Shown in pieces: positions 7,491-53,550 of a stretch of DNA of 64,000 nucleotides. Source of the stretch: a virus; IMG/VR virus record IMGVR_UViG_3300018481_000019, positions 29,818-93,817 of that record; one strand, written 5' to 3'. Each line of letters begins with the position of its first letter. The stretch's first letter is position 1. The position numbers and the translations under genes were made by a program. The notes beneath the pieces are model-generated. The model had not been told where the DNA came from, did no database searches, and saw only the letters and a list, made by a program, of their open reading frames with translations.

Positions 7491-8441
7491 ATGAGACGAA
7501 CCGTCGCATTCCTTACCGCTGTGTTGGTAGTGATGTTGCTCTCTCTGACGGCTACCGCCCATCATCGACCGTGGCACACCCGCGGCACCACCACCACCAC
7601 AACTACAACTACCCGGCCCACGACTACAACTACCCGGCCCACAACTACAAGTACCACCCCCGCTGGCGCGTGCGACACCACACCCGATGGTGCGCCGAGC
7701 GGAGCATCCGTTCGTGGTCCCGCCACTATCACGACGAGCCAGACCATTTCCAATGTCGTCTTCGACGGCACTCACAGCGATGATTTAGTTCGGGTCTATG
7801 GCTCTCATGTGATTTTCAATCATGTGACATTCAGAGGAACCGGCACCGGCTCCACCGGACATACGGTGGAAGTGAAGCGGGGAGGCTCAGTCGAGATTCG
7901 TAATTCGCTTTGGAATGGTCAGCCCTCAGAAGACTCCATTCAGTTTGGCGGTCCCAATGGCGATCAGCACGCCGGTCACTCGGTAATTCGGTGCAGCACG
8001 ATTGGCGGCGCACCAGACGAAGATCACGCTGATTTCAAAGTGAGCCAACCGGGAGCGGTCGTGGACTTCATCGACAACCGTTTTGCCACGGTGCCGACGG
8101 GGGGAAGGACAATTCAAAACGACGGAAGCGTCGGTAGGCAGAACTTCATCCGCAACACCGGACTGGCAAACGTGCTTTTGGAAAACACCGTCGCTGGCTC
8201 TTTGGTCGGCAACAGCATTGGTCAGTTGTACGTCTACAACGCAAGGGATTGGCTGATTCAAGGGAACACCATCACCCGATTGCAGAACGGTGTAGCCGAT
8301 GGACGCAACCCGAGCGGCATCTTCTACCTAGCGAACACGATCAGTCAGTTCGTGTTTTATGGCGGGTCGTGTTGGGCGACCGGGAACTCGTTGGCCTTAT
8401 CCCAATGCGCGGTCGGCTCCCCTGGTTGGTATCCGAGATAA
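7491..8441 (+). CDS. Secreted beta-helix protein with Thr-rich linker
   Basis: 316 aa with a signal peptide (MRRTVAFLTAVLVVMLLSLTATA), a Thr-rich linker (~33-55), then repeated V/I-x-N/F-x strands typical of right-handed parallel beta-helices (~75-300). RBS AGAGGA. It lies between the lysis genes and a bidirectional terminator. A secreted beta-helix could bind or cut a surface polysaccharide; no catalytic residues were recognised. Confidence 0.75.
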   Translation: MRRTVAFLTAVLVVMLLSLTATAHHRPWHTRGTTTTTTTTTRPTTTTTRPTTTSTTPAGACDTTPDGAPSGASVRGPATITTSQTISNVVFDGTHSDDLVRVYGSHVIFNHVTFRGTGTGSTGHTVEVKRGGSVEIRNSLWNGQPSEDSIQFGGPNGDQHAGHSVIRCSTIGGAPDEDHADFKVSQPGAVVDFIDNRFATVPTGGRTIQNDGSVGRQNFIRNTGLANVLLENTVAGSLVGNSIGQLYVYNARDWLIQGNTITRLQNGVADGRNPSGIFYLANTISQFVFYGGSCWATGNSLALSQCAVGSPGWYPR

Positions 8442-8442
8442 C

Positions 8443-8469
8443 AGAAAGCCCCGAAAATCGGGGCTTTCT
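8443..8469. terminator. Bidirectional terminator between convergent units
   Basis: AGAAAGCCCCG-AAAAT-CGGGGCTTTCT: perfect 11-bp stem with A-rich and T-rich flanks on opposite strands. It ends the rightward beta-helix unit and the long leftward unit. Confidence 0.9.
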
Positions 8470-8542
8470 GATTCCACGGCCCACGGCCTTGTCTTAGCGA
8501 CTCACCGTGATTGTCCACTCTTCCGCGAAGCGCTTGGTCAGC

Positions 8543-8857
8543 TTATCGAATGTCGTCCACGGTCACAGGCTCAGATTTGGGCCAGAGCGTGTTGATGTGT
8601 TCGATTGCCTTCCAGAGAGCAGGCCATTGCTGGCGGTGACGGACGATCATCATGCGGTGGTATCTCGGATTCACGCCTTCGTCACGAATAGCCCTTACTA
8701 GTTCGGACACTGCTTCCGCTAATTCCGATGAAGATAGCTCCTGGCTTCCACTCGGGACATTGCTCGCCGCATACGGCATAAGAGATTCCTTGATGGAGGG
8801 CGCGGGAGTAGATGTAGAGGTCGATTCCGGTTCCACACCAGTAGCACCGTGGGTCAT
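8543..8857 (-). CDS. Small hypothetical protein, last gene of the leftward array
   Basis: 104 aa with ATGA overlap. The N-terminal 45 residues are Ser/Thr/Pro-rich and disordered; the C-terminal half (VSELVRAIRDEGVNPRYHRMMIVRHRQQWPALWKAI, described in part) is helical and ends VDDIR. Not recognised. Confidence 0.6.
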   Translation of the reverse strand: MTHGATGVEPESTSTSTPAPSIKESLMPYAASNVPSGSQELSSSELAEAVSELVRAIRDEGVNPRYHRMMIVRHRQQWPALWKAIEHINTLWPKSEPVTVDDIR

Positions 8858-9093
8858 TCTTGGAACCATCCTTCGTTCCTCTGAACGTCCTTCGCCCTTT
8901 CGATTTGCTCTTGCCGCCAGCGCCATTCGTGGGGGTTGAGGGGGCCGCGGGGGTCGGGGTCGTCAATGTCTCCGATGAATTGGGGTTGTCTCTGTCTCTT
9001 GGCGTAGTCAATTTTCTCCCACAGTTGAATCATTATGACGAGCAGTCCGCCCAGGATGCAGGCTATGGCGATGAACCACAAAAAGTCAGTCAT
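8854..9093 (-). CDS. Small membrane-anchored protein
   Basis: 79 aa starting MTDFLWFIAIACIL behind GGAGGA. One transmembrane helix (~3-24), then a basic/polar cytoplasmic-type tail rich in Arg, Gln and Asp-Pro. ATGA overlaps on both sides. Function unknown. Confidence 0.7.
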   Translation of the reverse strand: MTDFLWFIAIACILGGLLVIMIQLWEKIDYAKRQRQPQFIGDIDDPDPRGPLNPHEWRWRQEQIERAKDVQRNEGWFQE

Positions 9094-9251
9094 GTTTCCT
9101 CCGGTACTGCCGCCTTGTCGAGCCATTCCACCAGCTTGTCCAAATCAACCGACACAGAACCTACGCCTCCGGCAAGCTCGCGTAGCGAGTTTTGCAAGTC
9201 GGTGAGACTTATCCACTTCTCTTGGTGGAAGTTGACGTAGCGGAGTCTCAT
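9090..9251 (-). CDS. 53-aa hypothetical protein
   Basis: Starts MRLRYVNFHQEKWISL, with four-base ATGA overlaps at both ends. Soluble, with an amphipathic C-terminal helix (VDLDKLVEWLDKA). Not recognised. Confidence 0.7.
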   Translation of the reverse strand: MRLRYVNFHQEKWISLTDLQNSLRELAGGVGSVSVDLDKLVEWLDKAAVPEET

Positions 9252-9445
9252 TCCTTGGTCTGAGCGTCCTTGATTGCGAGCACGATCAAGTCAATACGTG
9301 ATAGCTCGGCGGCTTTGGCCCGTCCTGCGCTGGAACCGGAAGCAACTTGTGATCTGTCCGCTTCCTTGTAAATGCGCTCCCGCTGTGCTTGGAGCAGATC
9401 ATTCAGGTACTTGGCCTGGTGATCTTCGACGGTGATGATTTTCAT
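9248..9445 (-). CDS. 65-aa helical hypothetical protein
   Basis: Starts MKIITVEDHQAKYLNDLL; ATGA overlaps upstream and downstream. Entirely helical and charged, with a Ser/Ala/Gly loop in the middle. Not recognised. Confidence 0.7.
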   Translation of the reverse strand: MKIITVEDHQAKYLNDLLQAQRERIYKEADRSQVASGSSAGRAKAAELSRIDLIVLAIKDAQTKE

Positions 9446-9588
9446 TCCGTGCCTTCCGTGTCTGTGTCTGTGTCTGTTTCTTCTCGCCACCAGCGGAGCC
9501 GGTTGAACCCTTTGATCGCAAGGTCCGCTCCGACCCAACCAATGACCAGGGCCACGATTAGAATGGCCCATGACTCCCATCCGTCCAA
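9442..9588 (-). CDS. Small one-helix membrane protein
   Basis: 48 aa if started at TTG 9588, which has GGAGG five bases upstream; a longer in-frame extension exists but lacks support. One membrane segment (~7-27), a basic stretch, then an odd acidic tail of repeated Thr-Asp (TDTDTDTEGTE). Confidence 0.5.
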   Translation of the reverse strand: MDGWESWAILIVALVIGWVGADLAIKGFNRLRWWREETDTDTDTEGTE

Positions 9589-9626
9589 TCGGGCCTCCGA
9601 GTAGGGACGGCGATCATAGCGGGTTG

Positions 9627-9872
9627 CTACTCCGGTTTCACGTCGATCAATTTCATGTAGCTGAGACTCCACACCACGTAGCCGAGAACATCGTCCCAAA
9701 GCTCGTCGGGCATCTTTTGAATCAGCTTCCAGTAGTCGTGGGCTTCGGGATGATCGCTCCCTTTTCGGAAGGCGACGTGGATTCCCTCACCGAGAATCGA
9801 CTTCCATTCGTCCGGTGTGTACCGAGTGGGTTCTTCCTCTACCGATGATTTTCCGATGTCCATTTCACTCAT
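9627..9872 (-). CDS. 81-aa acidic hypothetical protein
   Basis: ATGA overlap with the upstream gene. Trp/Asp-rich and helical (PDEWKSILGEGIHVAF; MPDELWDDVLGYVVW). Not recognised. Confidence 0.65.
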   Translation of the reverse strand: MSEMDIGKSSVEEEPTRYTPDEWKSILGEGIHVAFRKGSDHPEAHDYWKLIQKMPDELWDDVLGYVVWSLSYMKLIDVKPE

Positions 9873-10285
9873 TCTCGTTCTCCGTTCTGTTGTCTGGCGA
9901 TCTTGCAGGCTTTTGAAATCGGGACCACCTTGGAACTCGGCCTTCCGGTCACGGTGTTGAACACCCGAGCCGTGGTCTTAGTTTCCCGAACCACGGCATA
10001 GGTCGGAAGCTCGGACGGCATCTCAGATTGAACAACGGGACAGTTGTAGGTTCCGGTTGGTCTGCCCCTGTTATTCGGAGCAAGGTTGGATAGCGCCTTG
10101 CCTCTAACCGACTCCATCTCGTCGGGGTCGGTGCTTGCCAGCAAAGCGGCTAGTTCCTCCGGCCCGATCTGCTCGGCTTGCCGTGCAGATACGGTGTTGA
10201 CACCCCACCACGTTTGATCGGTCGCACCCAATGATCGTTTGGCTCGGTAGTAGCCAGAGCCGCCAGATGGGTAGGCGTGGCTCAC
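9869..10285 (-). CDS. 138-aa hypothetical protein
   Basis: GTG start overlapping the previous stop (GTGA). Basic, with a C-terminal half resembling a small beta-domain (YAVVRETKTTARVFNTVTGRP) ending in a basic helix. It may bind nucleic acid, but no family is recognised. Confidence 0.65.
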   Translation of the reverse strand: MSHAYPSGGSGYYRAKRSLGATDQTWWGVNTVSARQAEQIGPEELAALLASTDPDEMESVRGKALSNLAPNNRGRPTGTYNCPVVQSEMPSELPTYAVVRETKTTARVFNTVTGRPSSKVVPISKACKIARQQNGERE

Positions 10286-29583: not shown

Positions 29584-29855
29584 GGCACGACCCTGTCGAA
29601 TTCCTCTGGCAGTTCCAGAACCAAGTATCTCTTTAGAGCGTTTCTCTTGTTCGGCTCATAGTCGAGCACGTCCCATTCCCAACCGCCGTGCTCGTCCTTG
29701 AAGTCGATGGTCTTCTCCCCGACGACTTGACCGCCAAGGCTCTCGGCCACGGCGACGATGTCGAAGATGGTGGTGGGTCGTCCGTAGAACATGGCATCGG
29801 CTTCGACACCGGCTCGCAGTTCGTGGATAGTTTTGACTGTGTCTTTCGGTTTCAT
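29580..29855 (-). CDS. 91-aa hypothetical protein
   Basis: MKPKDTVKTIHELRAGVEAD and onward; alpha/beta, with W-E-W-D-V-L-D-Y near the middle, ending in D-R-V-V-P. ATGA overlaps both ends. Confidence 0.6.
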   Translation of the reverse strand: MKPKDTVKTIHELRAGVEADAMFYGRPTTIFDIVAVAESLGGQVVGEKTIDFKDEHGGWEWDVLDYEPNKRNALKRYLVLELPEEFDRVVP

Positions 29856-41770: not shown

Positions 41771-43792
41771 TCATGCGATGGTGACTGCGCCGCCAACGCC
41801 GCCCTTGGTCTTCACGGCCAGTGTGCCGGTGTAGCTCCACAGTCCGTCCGCCACGCCAGTCCCAGGACCGATGTAGGCCAAAGCCTCAAACGTCTCAGTG
41901 AAGGTGCAGTAGCGGTTGGTCTGAATGTCTTCCTTCGTCCGAACCACGCCAAGGTCGAGCGACCCACCGTCGAGACGGAGGAAAGCGCCAGTGGCATAGA
42001 GGATGAAGTCGAACGTGACGGGGTACGCATTCTTCGCTGCGAACCCGCCGCCGGGAGTCAGACCGTCGAGTGACCAAACGGCATCGACGTTGAAGTCGCT
42101 GAACCATCCATCGACTTCTGATGCACTGGTGTTGAGCGCATCGTCGCCGGGAGCCTGGAACGTGAGGTCCGCTGCCATTGCATCCCGAACCCAATTCGGA
42201 GCGATGAAGGTCAGTGGGGTCGTCTGCGAGAGACGGTTGTTCCAACGGAACTCCTGAGCGGCAATCCGAATCGCCTTCAGTGTGTCCCGCGACGTGCCAA
42301 GCACAGTGGTTCCGGCGGCACCGACACTGGTGGAAGCACCCTTCATTATGCCGAGAATCCATTCCTCAGCCATGCGTGCTTGCTGCACCAGGGCGAAATC
42401 CGTGTTGGCTCTGATCCACTCGGGGTATGCCCGCTGGTGGAGGTTGGAGAAACACAGACCCATTGTCAGTGCGACCAACTCGGCCTCACCGTTCACGCCA
42501 CACTCCACATCGAAGAATGGCTTCAGAGCGGGGTCCAGATCATCGGGTGCCACGCCGCCTGTCACCGCGGCCAGTGCCATATCGGTTCCAGTCACGGCGG
42601 CTTCGTCGGGATCGCCTGGGGTCCACACGCTCACACCGCGGGGATTCACTGCGGTAGGCCGCATGATCGACGGTGGGCGGGTGAAGATGATCCCTCCCCG
42701 ATCCGCATTGAACGTCGGGATCGAACTAGCGACGGGCCGGTCGGTTGTCCCGATGGTCGGCACGTCATAGATCGGCACCTTGGGCGCGCACCATCCGGCG
42801 GCGACCAGGGCTTCCCGAGTCAAGTTGGCGGGATCGGAAATCAACTGGCGCACCTTGCGCGCATTCCCGATGGTGTCTGAGGATGAAAGCGTCTGATCCT
42901 CTGTCGGCTCGTTCCGGTTGCGAATCGACGCGACGAGAATGTGCTCCCCGTCTCCGGCGATGCCGCGAATCGAATTGACCTTGGCGGCAAAGGCTTCCGC
43001 CACTCCATCCAAATCGGTCAACTCTGACCCTGCGGTGTAGCCGGGGATATCGCCGCCAGCGAGAATGACATTGGGACGCTCGGCAGGTGCGGCGCTCGGA
43101 GCGTTCTCTGCCGGAACGTCCGATGCCGTGACTTCGATGTCCACGGAATTGTTCTCCTGTTCGGTTGTGGCGGAAGCAGTCTCGGGAGCAGGCTCGCCTT
43201 CGGCGGGCGGTTGCTCTTCCTCCGGTGCTGGCTCCCCTTCGGGTGCTGGCTCTGCGGGCTGCTCTTCCGGTGCTGGCTCGGACGCGGGTTCCGCTGGTGC
43301 GGGTTCCGGTTCCGGCGCTGGCTCGGCAGGCGGCTCTTCGGGAGCGGGTGCGGGAGCAGGCTCGGCGGGCGGCTCGGGCTGAGGCTCGGGCTGTGGCTCG
43401 GCGGGCGGCTCGGGTGCTGGCTGTTGCTCTGCTTGCGGAGCGGGAGCGGCTTCGCCTGGTGGCGTACCGATCTGTGATTCCGGCGATTCGGCACCTAGTC
43501 CTGTGGCGGCGACGGGGGTAACCGTCGCGTCCGTGGCTCCACTTGTCGTGGTGGTCGCACTGGCGGCTGCCGGTACTTCCTCTGCGGGTGCTTCCGCTGG
43601 TGCGCCAGTCTCGGAGCGGCGGGTCTTCTCGGCGCGGACTTCATCAAGTCCGTCAGCGAGATTTTGCATTGCGTCAACGTCACCGGCTTCGTCGGCGGCA
43701 TCGAACGCTGCGACCATCTCCTGCTCTAGCGCGTCCAACTCTTCGTCGGAAAGATCAGGCAACGTCGAAAGACGCTCTGTGAAATCCTCCAT
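41771..43792 (-). CDS. HK97-like major capsid protein with scaffold-like N-terminus
   Basis: 673 aa. Residues 1-60 are a charged coiled coil (delta/scaffold-like). ~70-215 is a Pro/Glu/Ala linker of P-A-E/P-E-P repeats. From ~225 on come E-loop, A-domain and P-domain-like segments (F-D-V-E-C-G-V-N-G; A-R-M-A-E-E-W-I-L-G-I-M; L-T-F-I-A-P-N-W-V-R-D; E-T-F-E-A-L-A-Y). The HK97 core starts about one third in. The linker is odd: it may be cut on maturation. Confidence 0.8.
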   Translation of the reverse strand: MEDFTERLSTLPDLSDEELDALEQEMVAAFDAADEAGDVDAMQNLADGLDEVRAEKTRRSETGAPAEAPAEEVPAAASATTTTSGATDATVTPVAATGLGAESPESQIGTPPGEAAPAPQAEQQPAPEPPAEPQPEPQPEPPAEPAPAPAPEEPPAEPAPEPEPAPAEPASEPAPEEQPAEPAPEGEPAPEEEQPPAEGEPAPETASATTEQENNSVDIEVTASDVPAENAPSAAPAERPNVILAGGDIPGYTAGSELTDLDGVAEAFAAKVNSIRGIAGDGEHILVASIRNRNEPTEDQTLSSSDTIGNARKVRQLISDPANLTREALVAAGWCAPKVPIYDVPTIGTTDRPVASSIPTFNADRGGIIFTRPPSIMRPTAVNPRGVSVWTPGDPDEAAVTGTDMALAAVTGGVAPDDLDPALKPFFDVECGVNGEAELVALTMGLCFSNLHQRAYPEWIRANTDFALVQQARMAEEWILGIMKGASTSVGAAGTTVLGTSRDTLKAIRIAAQEFRWNNRLSQTTPLTFIAPNWVRDAMAADLTFQAPGDDALNTSASEVDGWFSDFNVDAVWSLDGLTPGGGFAAKNAYPVTFDFILYATGAFLRLDGGSLDLGVVRTKEDIQTNRYCTFTETFEALAYIGPGTGVADGLWSYTGTLAVKTKGGVGGAVTIA

Positions 43793-43983
43793 TGGAGAAT
43801 CCTCTTTCCTGAATAGCGGTCATTTTCTGACTCGTCTGTGTCAAAGGAAAGAGGTACGTCGCTGCATAGCTCGGTCGCTCTTGCTGGTCCGACCATACAA
43901 CCACGGCCTTTCAAAAAGCAAGTGGCTAGTGTCGTGGCCCTGTCCCGAGTTGGTCTTGTACCTCTGACTCGGGGTAGGGACTA

Positions 43984-44017
43984 GAAAGAGGGAGCCGAGA
44001 AATCGACTCCCTCTTTC
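43984..44017. terminator. Terminator 1 upstream of the capsid gene
   Basis: GAAAGAGGGAGCCGA / TCGACTCCCTCTTTC, near-perfect, T/A-rich ends. 43793-44130 contains no gene: only this hairpin, a second copy, and a 16-base direct repeat (43907-43922 and 44021-44036). Confidence 0.8.
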
Positions 44018-44074
44018 GATTCAAAAAGCAAGTGGTGGGGTAGGAGAAAACTCACTCACTCCCAGAGTGACCAC

Positions 44075-44108
44075 GAAAGAGGGAGCCGGTCATTCGGCTC
44101 CCTCTTTC
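44075..44108. terminator. Terminator 2 after the surface-protein gene
   Basis: GAAAGAGGGAGCCG-GTCATT-CGGCTCCCTCTTTC, perfect 14-bp stem. Together with terminator 1 it isolates the capsid unit from the LPFTG gene. The stem is of the same family as the 53.58-kb terminator. Confidence 0.85.
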
Positions 44109-44130
44109 TTCGCGCGTACTGGACTGTCCG

Positions 44131-45441
44131 TCAGCGTGAGTCTATGCGACCCTTCCGTGTCGTGGCGAGTACCACCAGGCCAAGCAAGCCGAGAGCGCCC
44201 GCCAGGAATGCCAAGGGCTTGATCGGAATGTCGGTGCCGGTGAACGGCAGTATCCCGTCTTCAGGACTCGGCGTGCTCGGAACCAATCGTGGTGTGGTCG
44301 GTGTGACCGGGTTCTCCGGGTTGGCACACTCCGATGATTCCGGTGGGTAGGTGATGAATGCGGTGGCGGTCGGGTTGACCGTGTAGGTGAGGTTGATTCC
44401 CTCACGCAAGAACTCGTCGCTCGGGTCACGGACCCACAGCCCATCGTCGGTGAGAATCCAACCAGGCACGTCGTCTATCGACCCGTCGGCGTTGACACTG
44501 GTGCCGGGGAAGAGCAGATCGACCGTCGTGTTCGGCTCGTAGACAAGAGCCTGCGTGGACACCACGTTCCCATTCACGTCAGCCATTGTCAGCGTGCCGG
44601 TCTGTCCCGCCAGTTCGGGGAAGGTGTTCTGAAACTCAATGCGAATGGTCGGCACTTCAGCCACGCAAACCGTCGTTGCCGCACCGAACACGAACGGTAC
44701 TGTGGTTGTCGTCTCGCCAGGGACCGTCGTGGAGCCAGGGACCGTCGTGGTCGTGGTCGTCTCGCCGGGTAGCGTCGTGGTGGTTGTGGTTGGCCCCAAC
44801 GGTGTCAAGCAAGTGTCCGACGCAAAGGCTCCGGTTTGAGCGTTCACGGCGAGAATCAAAAGCAGGACTCCCGGCGGGAGAACGTCGGCAAGGTCTTGCA
44901 CTGTCTCGTAGGGCCGACCGGCGATGATTGCCAAGGCGATGATCGCATTCACTCCGCCCAACTCTTCCAACTCGACTTGCGGCGCGGTGTTGACATCGAC
45001 GCAGAACTGAGTCGGTGTCGGCGGAGCAGTCGTGGTCGTGGTCGGTTGGGTCGTCGTCGTGGTCGGTTGAGTGGTCGTAGTCGTCGGCTGTGTGGTGGTT
45101 GTCGTCGTGCTCGTCGTGGTGCTGGTAGTGCTGGTGGTTGACGTAGACGTGGTCGTGGTGGGACAAGGTCCGAAGATGTCCTCTTCGTGACCGGCTCTCG
45201 GTGTGCCGTTTTCAAAAAAGTGACCGGCTTGTCCGAAGATCGCCACCCACGGCAAATTCAGTTCTACGAAATGTTCGGTGCCTGCCAGTCCGGTGAAATG
45301 GCAGATCGTGAAATGCTCCGGTGGTCTGGTTGTTTCATCGACGGTGGGCAATGTCGTCTCGGTAGTTCCCATTGCCACCATTGGCAGCGTCATTGCAAAT
45401 AGCAACGCCAACACCGAGACGGCAGCAAGTGCCTTTCTCAT
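44131..45441 (-). CDS. Secreted, sortase-anchored HhH surface protein (LPFTG)
   Basis: 436 aa with GGAGGAAG upstream. Signal peptide (~1-25); a Cys/His module with I-C-H-F-T-G...G-H-E-E-D-I-F-G-P-C (~48-95); Thr-rich linker (~96-145); a helix-hairpin-helix pair of ComEA type, D-V-N-T-A-P-Q-V-E-L-E-E-L-G-G...I-I-A-G-R-P-Y (~152-190); a second Thr linker; a beta domain (~250-370); then L-P-F-T-G (398-402), a membrane helix and an R-K-G-R-I-D-S-R tail. By family it would be exported and joined to the host wall by sortase. Confidence 0.85.
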   Translation of the reverse strand: MRKALAAVSVLALLFAMTLPMVAMGTTETTLPTVDETTRPPEHFTICHFTGLAGTEHFVELNLPWVAIFGQAGHFFENGTPRAGHEEDIFGPCPTTTTSTSTTSTTSTTTSTTTTTTQPTTTTTQPTTTTTQPTTTTTAPPTPTQFCVDVNTAPQVELEELGGVNAIIALAIIAGRPYETVQDLADVLPPGVLLLILAVNAQTGAFASDTCLTPLGPTTTTTTLPGETTTTTTVPGSTTVPGETTTTVPFVFGAATTVCVAEVPTIRIEFQNTFPELAGQTGTLTMADVNGNVVSTQALVYEPNTTVDLLFPGTSVNADGSIDDVPGWILTDDGLWVRDPSDEFLREGINLTYTVNPTATAFITYPPESSECANPENPVTPTTPRLVPSTPSPEDGILPFTGTDIPIKPLAFLAGALGLLGLVVLATTRKGRIDSR

Positions 45442-45616
45442 TCTTCCTCATTCTTCCTCCGATAGACGGCACTTCTCTTTTCCCCGAAAGCGCCAAGAAC
45501 GAAAAGACTACTCTGTGAAAAAGCGAATACCACCCTTGTCTCCGGGGAAGAGCAAAGGTGGCATTCGCTGGTGTCGAGATTCGCAGACTGGCTTGGGAGT
45601 CACAAGCACCGCTACG

Positions 45617-45716
45617 AAAAATCCGGCGAGAGAATTCCCAACTGATTCGTGTCTGCGTGAGAGGTCCGAAGACCTAACCGAGACTCCGCCTCTGTCGGGA
45701 ATCCAACTCGCCGGAC
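45617..45716 (-). ncRNA. Predicted promoter-driven small structured RNA
   Basis: About 100 nt. Closing stem TCCGGCGAG/CTCGCCGGA (9 bp), then GGATTCCC/GGGAATTC (8 bp with one wobble), and an inner AGGTC-TTCG-GACCT hairpin. TTTTT follows the closing stem. The 5' end fits +1 of a TTGCAT-N16-TATGGT promoter. No ORF lies in it; a tRNA fold (no proper T-arm) was rejected. Function unknown. Confidence 0.65.
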
Positions 45717-45721
45717 GTGGA

Positions 45722-45749
45722 ACCATAGCGGTTCCCACCGGGAATGCAA
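45722..45749 (-). promoter_or_regulatory. Promoter for the small RNA: TTGCAT-N16-TATGGT
   Basis: Exact -35 and spacing of the phage promoter family, but -10 TATGGT and no ATTWCA in the spacer. The -35 lies inside an inverted repeat CCGGGAAT/ATTCCCGG (45738-45762), a candidate operator. Nearby, 45767-45799 is another hairpin (12 bp, one mismatch) after the upstream gene. Confidence 0.65.
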
Positions 45750-45802
45750 ATGAGATTCCCGGTTTTCTCGGGCGCTCCGTAAGCCAGGGAGCACCCGAGA
45801 GA

Positions 45803-46249
45803 TTAGCTACTCAGGGTTTCGACCACTTCCAACATCGTCTTCACGGATTCATAGACCTTGGGAATTGCCTTCTCCGCCACGGTCGCATCCTTCTGCGCGG
45901 CAATGGCTACCGCTTCGACACTGTCGTTATGTACCCGAGTCTGTGTGTCTTTCCGACGGGGAACTACTGCTTCCCGACGTTCCATAGGTGACGGTGTCGA
46001 GTTCCGCTTGTACCCGTTGGCATAGACCGGGTTGGTGACGTAGAGCTTGTTGTCCTCCGCCAATTCCAATCGGGCTTGCCGGTCCCAATCCCCTACCGCA
46101 ACCGTGTGTTTGCTCCGCTTGAATCTCGGTAACGCCGATTCCAAGTAGGTCACTATCTCGCCACGGTTGGCGAACGACTGGCCTCCCATGTAAGCCGTCC
46201 GCAACTCGTCAATCGCCGCACGACCAAAGGTCGATCTGGCTTTCTTCAT
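45803..46249 (-). CDS. 148-aa basic/helical hypothetical protein
   Basis: Starts MKKARSTFGRAAIDELRTAY after CAGGAGG and a leader GCGGACAGACACAGAC like those of the promoter family. Basic N-terminal half, variable Arg/Ser/Pro linker and a C-terminal helix (KVYESVKTMLEVVETL). Possibly DNA-binding. Confidence 0.65.
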   Translation of the reverse strand: MKKARSTFGRAAIDELRTAYMGGQSFANRGEIVTYLESALPRFKRSKHTVAVGDWDRQARLELAEDNKLYVTNPVYANGYKRNSTPSPMERREAVVPRRKDTQTRVHNDSVEAVAIAAQKDATVAEKAIPKVYESVKTMLEVVETLSS

Positions 46250-46288
46250 TCGTTCCTCCTGTTTCCAGTCTGTGTCTGTCCGCACGTC

Positions 46289-47119
46289 CTAGAGCAATTC
46301 CTCCACGGTTTTGCCCGCACTTGAAAGTCCGTCTTCGATCAGAGCTACGGCGACTCCGAGCTTGTGCTGCACCTTGGCGATGTCAGCAATCACTTCCGCG
46401 ACCACGGCTTCTGCCGACGGGACACTGCCCTTGCGGAGTAGCCGACTGAATGTCTCGGCCTTCTCCACCACTCCATCGACGGCTGTGTCGGCCTTGTCGA
46501 TAGCAAGCGGTAGCTCGGTGAGAATCCCGATGGTGTCGAGAGCGCCCAACTCCCGCGTCTTGCGGGGAGGTCGAGCCGCTTTCTCTTCGTACATATCGGC
46601 GGCAGAACTGAAGGTGGCTCGGTCGTCACTCACCACGTCAGCGACAATCTCCGGTTCGACTTCGACCAGTTTCTTGATCGCCGTCTTGCGCTGCGCCGGA
46701 GTCATTGTCTCCACGGCTCGTTCGATCTGCTCCGGTGAAGACCCAGGCTCCACCCGAACCCGCTTCCGAACTTCGTCATTGTCGGACGGCGGGAATCCAA
46801 TAGTGGGCAGCTTCACCGTGGCTCCTGGCTTGATGTCGGTGTCGCCCTTCCCCTCTTCCCACGCTTGGCGATAGGACCGGACGGTGTCCGGCTTGGTCAG
46901 ACCATTGATGCCGAGCTTGGCGAACTGGACTGTGCTGAGAGTATTGCCGGGTTCGGCAATTCTTTTGGGCTGTCCAGGCTTGTCGTGTCCATGAGTGAAG
47001 GCATAGACGATTGCCGCCCGCTCCCAACCCTTTGCCGTGAGTAGCGAGTCAATGCCATTGAGGGCATCGGTCGCTTTCTTGATCGTGGTCGGTATGACCA
47101 CTGTGGTTGGTCGTGTCAT
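46289..47119 (-). CDS. HTH-like DNA-binding protein next to the primase
   Basis: 276 aa. N-terminal helices G-W-E-R-A-A-I-V-Y-A-F-T...F-A-K-L-G-I-N-G-L-T-K-P-D-T-V-R-S-Y-R-Q-A-W (~31-92) look like a DNA-binding helix bundle; then a linker and a C-terminal helical region (~135-276). Replication initiator or regulator roles are both possible. Confidence 0.65.
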   Translation of the reverse strand: MTRPTTVVIPTTIKKATDALNGIDSLLTAKGWERAAIVYAFTHGHDKPGQPKRIAEPGNTLSTVQFAKLGINGLTKPDTVRSYRQAWEEGKGDTDIKPGATVKLPTIGFPPSDNDEVRKRVRVEPGSSPEQIERAVETMTPAQRKTAIKKLVEVEPEIVADVVSDDRATFSSAADMYEEKAARPPRKTRELGALDTIGILTELPLAIDKADTAVDGVVEKAETFSRLLRKGSVPSAEAVVAEVIADIAKVQHKLGVAVALIEDGLSSAGKTVEELL

Positions 47120-53022: not shown

Positions 53023-53550
53023 ATGACTTCAGACACACAGGCTCCCACCGAGCCAACCAAGACCAAGAAACCCATCTACAAGCGAGTGTGGTTCATCGCC
53101 GGAGCCGGAATCCTGGCTATCACCATCGCCGCCAATGCAGGCGGAGGAAGCGCCCCGGCTACCTACGAAGAGGTTGCGGCTTCACGACCGACGACCACCA
53201 CCAATGCCAACGGCGGCGGCGGCGAGACGCAAGCTCCGGCCCCGACCACTGCACCGGCTCTCACCCGAGCACAGGAGAATGCAATCGGCAGTGCCGAGTC
53301 CTACTTGGATTTCAGTGCTTTCAGTCGGAGCGGATTGATCGGTCAGTTGGAGTACGAAGAGTATTCCACCGCCGATGCCACCTTTGCAGTGGACTCGCTC
53401 AACGTCGATTGGAACGAGCAGGCGTACAAGAGCGCCGAGCAGTATTTGGACTTCTCGTCCTTCTCTGCCGGGGAACTTCAAGACCAGTTGGAGTTTGAGG
53501 GTTTCACTCCCTCCCAAGCCGCCTACGGAGTGTCCAAGACCGGCCTCTAG
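53023..53550 (+). CDS. Ltp-like superinfection exclusion protein
   Basis: 175 aa. Short cytoplasmic start, one membrane helix (~22-41), Thr/Gly/Pro linker, then two repeats of the Ltp/host cell surface-exposed type: A-I-G-S-A-E-S-Y-L-D-F-S-A-F-S...L-I-G-Q-L-E-Y-E and A-Y-K-S-A-E-Q-Y-L-D-F-S-S-F-S...L-Q-D-Q-L-E-F-E. Ltp of Streptococcus phage TP-J34 blocks incoming phage DNA. Anchored outside the membrane, this protein likely protects the infected cell. Confidence 0.85.
   Translation: MTSDTQAPTEPTKTKKPIYKRVWFIAGAGILAITIAANAGGGSAPATYEEVAASRPTTTTNANGGGGETQAPAPTTAPALTRAQENAIGSAESYLDFSAFSRSGLIGQLEYEEYSTADATFAVDSLNVDWNEQAYKSAEQYLDFSSFSAGELQDQLEFEGFTPSQAAYGVSKTGL

Follow-up and report, generated by a model that had tools for sequence, protein, structure and literature searches.

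A phage gene for a predicted wall-anchored protein with a ComEA-like helix-hairpin-helix domain

What does a tailed phage gain from a protein that appears to be built for the outside of the cell, and does the helix-hairpin-helix (HhH) domain of this protein bind DNA? These questions are raised by a gene in a 64,000-nucleotide stretch of DNA (the window; positions 29,818 to 93,817 of IMG/VR virus record IMGVR_UViG_3300018481_000019). The preliminary description of the gene had proposed a DNA-binding protein fixed to the surface of the infected cell, which could trap incoming phage DNA or act at entry.

The window is part of a 93.8-kb viral record, which is linear and possibly partial. Judging from its genes for major head and tail proteins, a terminase, a portal, a tape measure protein, a primase, and a DNA polymerase, the record is a tailed phage, and the protein is phage-encoded as previously stated. 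An integrase was not found in the record. A GenBank search with the capsid protein matched 847 phage records, and the ten commonest organism names among them (841 of the 847) all refer to actinobacterial hosts. By this measure, the host is an actinobacterium. Towards its N terminus, the major capsid protein (41771-43792, minus strand) contains a long stretch rich in Pro, Glu, and Ala; its match to phrog_777 begins only at residue 159.

Layout of the gene and its product

The gene is a complete open reading frame with a stop codon and coding-type codon use (score 57.9), and its product has 436 amino acids. From the N to the C terminus, the product consists of a signal peptide, a domain with two cysteines, a Thr-rich linker, the HhH domain, a second Thr-rich linker, an Ig-like domain, and a tail with LPFTG, a membrane stretch, and basic residues (Table 1). 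The signal peptide, the linkers, and the tail had all been reported from the first reading, and each was found again: the signal peptide was read from the sequence as Sec-type, both linkers are present, and the sorting signal is complete, with LPFTG at residues 398-402, a tail hydropathy of 2.58, and TRKGRIDSR at the end. We consider it very probable that the protein is displayed on the cell wall. No sortase exceeded the cut-off in any of the 32 phage records, including that of the window; therefore, a host enzyme would have to anchor the protein. A Foldseek search with the model of the C-terminal domain gave weak matches only (best E 2.7e-3, glycoside hydrolases), and, thus, "Ig-like" denotes a general class and not a relative.

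The gene is likely a unit of its own, bounded by hairpins that are likely terminators. A simple scan of 43700-46400 for sigma-70-like promoters, the only type covered, did not reveal any.

Table 1. Features of the gene, its product, and its flanks (window positions)
Feature	Position	Strand	Basis
Gene for the predicted wall-anchored protein	44131..45441	-	ORF, codon usage
Signal peptide, residues 1-25, without a lipobox Cys	45367..45441	-	Read from the sequence
N-terminal two-Cys domain FTICHF...GPCP, residues 40-94	45160..45324	-	88-89% identity with L003/L002
Thr-rich linker 1, residues 95-145, 69% Thr	45007..45159	-	Translation
ComEA-type helix-hairpin-helix pair, residues 147-211, Cys147 and Cys211 at its ends; GhG hairpins lost	44809..45003	-	Profile, phmmer, model
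Thr-rich linker 2, residues 213-250	44692..44805	-	Translation
C-terminal domain, residues 251-378, beta-rich, Ig-like (model pLDDT 85)	44308..44691	-	Common to 27 distinct phage proteins and actinobacterial LPXTG proteins
Cell-wall sorting signal, residues 398-436: LPFTG, hydrophobic stretch, basic tail	44134..44250	-	Sequence
Upstream of the gene, strong hairpin with UUUUU after it; likely terminates the preceding operon	45522..45569	-	MFE -33.1 kcal/mol, z -7.05
Perfect 14-bp inverted repeat directly after the gene; likely terminator region	44075..44108		z -5.36
Second inverted repeat (20 bp) of similar sequence, before the capsid gene	43979..44022		z -5.60

Relatives in phages and in bacterial chromosomes

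IMG/VR scans identified the same architecture (N-terminal domain, HhH, and LPFTG) in one other virus, represented by two contigs (L002 and L003). Identity between the window protein and that of L003 is 89% in the N-terminal domain, 71% in the HhH domain, and about 40% in the C-terminal domain, as if the parts had been exchanged separately. The nearest relative of the window protein, also phage-borne, shares only 60% identity with it, which indicates that the line has long been kept in phages. An HhH-LPXTG protein of another build occurs in two further viral contigs (L042/L088 and L043/L089). The four phage neighborhoods of HhH-LPXTG genes differ: the window gene sits between a primase operon and the capsid gene, that of the L003 virus (L087) between tail-fiber and endolysin genes, that of L088 between a primase-polymerase and a terminase, and that of L089 near an integrase. 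A search for LPXTG plus HhH in phages had been suggested at the outset, along with the statement that no described phage protein has this layout. The statement held for 50,697 GenBank phage records, in which three queries did not reveal a relative (the window protein as query reached only two fragments, at E=2), and searches of the open-access literature on phage LPXTG or HhH-LPXTG proteins did not find a description of the layout. In IMG/VR, the viruses above carry HhH-LPXTG proteins.

The C-terminal domain was found at 29 loci in IMG/VR. When L002 and L021 (copies of the L037 and L020 proteins, respectively) and L028 (identical to L026) were left out, 26 proteins remained, which together with the window protein form a family of 27 distinct members. 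In other members, the HhH domain is replaced by other two-Cys domains. A second Thr/Pro-rich protein is encoded in four family contigs (L013 at 8117-10156, L025, L027, and L019), 0.5-7 kb from the first; three of these proteins have 662-679 amino acids and one has 376, and that of L013 starts like a signal peptide.

The family differs in its C-terminal endings. A sorting motif, a membrane stretch, and a basic or charged tail are present in 10 of the 27 members. The other 17 (L010, L013, L014, L016, L017, L020, L023-L027, L029, L030, and L032-L035) lack a membrane stretch: exactly one residue follows LPxT (16 members) or LVPT (one member) before the stop, and after LPxT it is one of R, A, L, V, E, and G. 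To our knowledge, a conserved terminal LPxTx stop motif has no known meaning. A check of three frames behind these stops did not reveal a frameshift or read-through to a membrane segment, except for a possible membrane stretch behind L017. Small membrane ORFs directly follow the stops in L017 (downstream of 3923) and L033 (downstream of 8438, a separate ORF), which may reflect chance, the next gene, or a split anchor. A lipobox is present in nine of the 27 members, seven of which also have the full C-terminal tail (L012, L015, L018, L019, L022, L031, and L036), while L023 and L033 combine it with an LPxTx-type or LVPTx end. Judging from these motifs, a lipobox and a sorting tail would tether the seven proteins at both ends.

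A genome scan with the two-member alignment of the whole protein gave 37 stretches, none of which was confirmed, and did not find a chromosomal relative of the N-terminal domain. When the HhH alignment was used in a second genome scan, 42 loci were obtained, and one HhH-LPXTG protein (L086) was identified among the 20 loci for which ORFs were read. Nine hits (L072, L076, L077, and L079-L084) were a long protein that, by eye, resembles the alpha subunit of DNA polymerase III. The L086/L096 protein of Micromonosporaceae has an LPVTG motif and a Cys-bracketed HhH domain, and its gene adjoins those for EF-Ts, a UMP-kinase-family protein, and ribosome recycling factor, which indicates a chromosomal location.

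The HhH profile matched 244 of 296 Actinomycetes genomes. Among the five best (E <= 8e-13), four contained LPxTG proteins that were read whole, and one contained a protein with masked stretches; the matches examined after these five (L101 and L102) were ComEA-type. The chromosomal LPXTG proteins (L086/L096, L097, L098, and L099) resemble the window protein in their signal peptide, extracellular domain, linker, and LPxTG-membrane-basic tail, and share with it the HhH pattern CVD[VI]NTA...RPF..DL...LC. In contrast to the window protein, they are chromosomal, have Arg at the position of Geobacillus ComEA Lys166 and some Lys or Arg in the second motif, carry another N-terminal domain, and have neither a Thr-rich stalk nor an Ig-like C-terminal domain.

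In Acidimicrobiia, 97 of 395 genomes matched the HhH profile at E up to 1e-6. An HhH-LPXTG twin was not found among the nine of the 15 best loci that were read (all except L122, L124, L125, L127, L128, and L129), which encode ComEA-type, membrane, secreted nuclease-like, and pilin-like proteins. One Acidimicrobiia ORF (L121, 382-1686, plus strand) encodes a secreted protein that, by eye, resembles an HNH-type nuclease; it also has a Thr-rich region and a C-terminal Cys-bracketed HhH domain, and would thus be a case of the same HhH subtype on an enzyme. The C-terminal domain of the window protein occurs in five of the 395 Acidimicrobiia genomes, in which all six matches have a sortase-type tail, and two of these proteins share an mreB/Mur-ligase neighborhood. 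We considered this domain as a mark of an Acidimicrobiia host; however, it is not exclusive because nine of the 296 Actinomycetes genomes carry it (four of the 20 matches were read, all four of which were LPXTG proteins). Based on these matches, actinobacterial surface proteins are the source of the modules in the phage protein, and its architecture is not unique to phages: Cys-bracketed HhH domains are also found in chromosomal LPXTG proteins of Actinomycetes.

The helix-hairpin-helix domain

In hmmscan, Pfam HHH_3 (PF12836) matched the window protein at E 5e-5 with 23.7 bits, which falls short of the curated cut-off of 27; in the genome search, the match reached 27.1 bits, just above this cut-off. 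In phmmer, the ComEA-related Thermus protein 2duy was reached at E 9e-4, and ComEA and PsbU were weaker. An AlphaFold model of the domain built from five homologs (pLDDT 80) has four helices, in which the two helix-hairpin-helix motifs stand in the ComEA arrangement. The top Foldseek match was 2duy (E 0.06, with an rmsd of 0.9 across 47 columns), and VIA-align gave Z 7.9 for Geobacillus ComEA (8dss) and Z 7.8 for 2duy, with 57 residues aligned; Tex (Z 5.8) and PsbU (Z 4.3 at most) were lower. The HhH assignment is not a chance match, and, according to the model, the fold is ComEA-like. The ComEA-like HhH pair of the preliminary description was thus upheld by structure prediction, the check that had been proposed for it.

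DNA binding is a different matter. In Geobacillus ComEA, hairpin backbone contacts and lysines hold DNA, and replacement of Lys166 with Ala abolishes binding (PMC9747964). Both GhG hairpins are retained in each of seven ComEA domains compared, whereas neither is in the window protein, which has GGVN and PPGV in their places. The second motif of the window protein, LPPGVLLLILAVNAQTGAFASDTC, does not contain Lys or Arg, while all seven ComEA domains have at least one basic residue in the second motif along with both hairpins. Ile168 occupies the position of Lys166, a loss that also speaks against DNA binding; however, Lys is also absent there in all seven actinobacterial ComEA domains compared, and, thus, its loss is not discriminating and is weak as proof. 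Negative charge was dropped as an argument against DNA binding because the net charges of the seven ComEA domains range from -9 to +1 and because equal acidity with few Lys and Arg was seen in 75 of 2253 windows taken from other phage proteins. With the hairpins and basic residues gone, we rejected DNA binding, the default for an HhH domain, as the main reading; it is not supported by the residues of this domain, and the DNA-binding role assigned earlier was not borne out.

The DNA-facing side of the domain has changed to hydrophobic residues, which suggests a protein partner. A precedent for the use of this fold is PsbU, an extrinsic protein of photosystem II, in which an exported ComEA-like HhH fold serves in protein packing and not in DNA binding. 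PsbU matches the window protein at a Pfam E of 0.078; however, its setting is unrelated and it has no wall anchor. ComEA shares the VNTA motif and the fold with the window protein, and differs from it in its GhG hairpins, basic DNA-contact residues, and oligomerization domain (PMC9747964). The window protein, unlike ComEA, has a C-terminal sorting-signal anchor. Protein binding by extracellular HhH domains is known: in ComE1 of Pasteurellaceae, the HhH motifs bind fibronectin type III modules as well as DNA (PMC2601033).

Possible roles at the surface of the infected cell

The reading that we favor, tentatively and at somewhat less than even confidence, is an accessory cassette that alters the surface of the infected cell, with exclusion of other phages as its leading use. 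The gene would be a moron-like cassette, namely, a captured host surface-protein gene between replication genes and the capsid gene; hairpins on both sides and a differing place among phages, which are moron-type features, are present. The phage protein may be exported by Sec and joined to peptidoglycan by the host sortase, and would then stand out on long Thr-rich, probably glycosylated stalks. The ComEA-fold domain would not be a DNA clamp and most likely binds a protein since it has lost the hairpins and basic residues that face DNA, and its second helix is hydrophobic. The benefit would most likely go to the infecting phage, which remodels the surface of its own cell, and competing phages may be excluded by a protein contact that blocks adsorption or injection, in the manner of Ltp and CwpV.

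Exclusion leads because the same phage holds a second surface gene, the product of which belongs, by its domains, to the Ltp superinfection exclusion family. This gene (53023-53550, plus strand) encodes an N-terminal membrane segment, a Thr/Pro-rich linker, and two PF07553 repeats (E 3e-26). Ltp stalls ejection via the tape measure protein, and the repeats of Ltp from TP-J34 act on that protein (PMC11480721, PMC3952083). Similar to the window protein, Ltp places phage-encoded, helical, DNA-binding-like domains outside the cell on a flexible tether and acts on the tape measure protein, not on DNA; however, it is a lipoprotein or transmembrane protein, and a profile search did not find PF07553 repeats in the wall protein. 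CwpV of Clostridioides difficile is also wall-bound, a repeat protein of the cell wall that blocks phages after adsorption (PMC4737114); it is host-encoded and phase-variable and has other domains, for which the window protein shows no match. The link between the wall protein and exclusion is circumstantial because PF07553 occurs in only one of the 32 family records, that of the window, many of the records being fragments, and because the tape measure protein of this phage does not have a distinct positive charge at its C terminus (net -4 for residues 901-1000 and +4 for the last 18), so that an Ltp-type electrostatic bite on it is not supported. By analogy with these systems, exclusion as the main role is possible but somewhat doubtful.

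The nearest rival to exclusion is that the protein is an adhesin or aggregation factor, which makes infected cells stick to cells, surfaces, or matrix, and thereby benefits the spread of the phage or the survival of the cell while leaving other phages unaffected. Modular two-Cys and Ig-like domains on Thr-rich stalks are an adhesin build, and the chromosomal LPXTG homologs presumably serve the cell and not the phage. The fibronectin binding of ComE1 described above (PMC2601033) also points in this direction. However, a Pfam profile search did not match the wall protein to an adhesin family, and 17 of 27 family members, in which the sorting signal lacks its membrane segment, may be lost from the wall. 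We regard adhesion as rather unlikely.

The earlier description had named a host gene picked up and not expressed as the finding that would speak against it. That the gene is a recently acquired host surface gene unused by the phage is improbable. Its HhH and C-terminal modules have homologs in actinobacterial chromosomes, so that this part of the objection stands, but the frame is intact with coding-type codon use, hairpins flank the gene, HhH-LPXTG genes are also found in three other phage contexts, the C-terminal domain is shared by 27 distinct phage proteins, and the nearest relative is both distant and phage-borne. An intact, hairpin-flanked gene of a theme that recurs in unrelated phages does not resemble a dead passenger.

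The DNA trap originally suggested, in which superinfection is blocked by the capture of incoming phage DNA on the wall-bound HhH domain, is very improbable: with DNA binding not supported (no GhG hairpin of two, a second motif free of Lys and Arg, and Ile at the Lys166 position), the trap is not supported either. Moreover, tailed phages normally deliver their DNA via the tail, without exposing it at the wall. The ComEA fold itself is in favor of a trap, as is the action of ComEA on DNA outside the membrane (PMC9747964).

A virion or entry protein that engages the wall is the least probable reading because, although the gene adjoins the capsid gene in the window and lies near tail genes in L087, and Ig-like domains are of a type common on virions, the product has a Sec signal peptide and a complete sorting signal, hairpins separate its gene from the capsid gene, and no PHROG family matched it. 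It is probable, although slightly less so than wall display, that the protein is an accessory and not a virion protein.

The known examples of surface proteins made by phages are mainly those of pathogen lysogens and small exclusion lipoproteins. SasX of staphylococci, a prophage-borne, sortase-anchored LPXTG protein and a colonization factor of lysogens, is likewise a phage-carried surface protein with a sortase anchor, but its domains differ from those of the window protein. We speculate, with more doubt than for the cassette itself and as a rather unlikely extension of it, that uncultured actinobacterial phages share a modular Thr-rich surface-protein family, the 27 members of which coat the infected cell by three attachments: a full LPXTG signal, a lipobox with LPXTG, and a short signal of LPxT plus one residue that is read by a sortase or a partner. 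The tip of the window coat would then be a ComEA fold turned into a protein binder. If true, a modular sortase-dependent family in environmental actinobacterial phages would be a wider way to rebuild the cell exterior during infection; such a family, made of host surface-protein parts, was not found in the 50,697 GenBank phage records searched. The LPxTx endings raise a question about sorting signals, and the window protein bears on whether a fold from DNA uptake has been reused as an exclusion or adhesion module.
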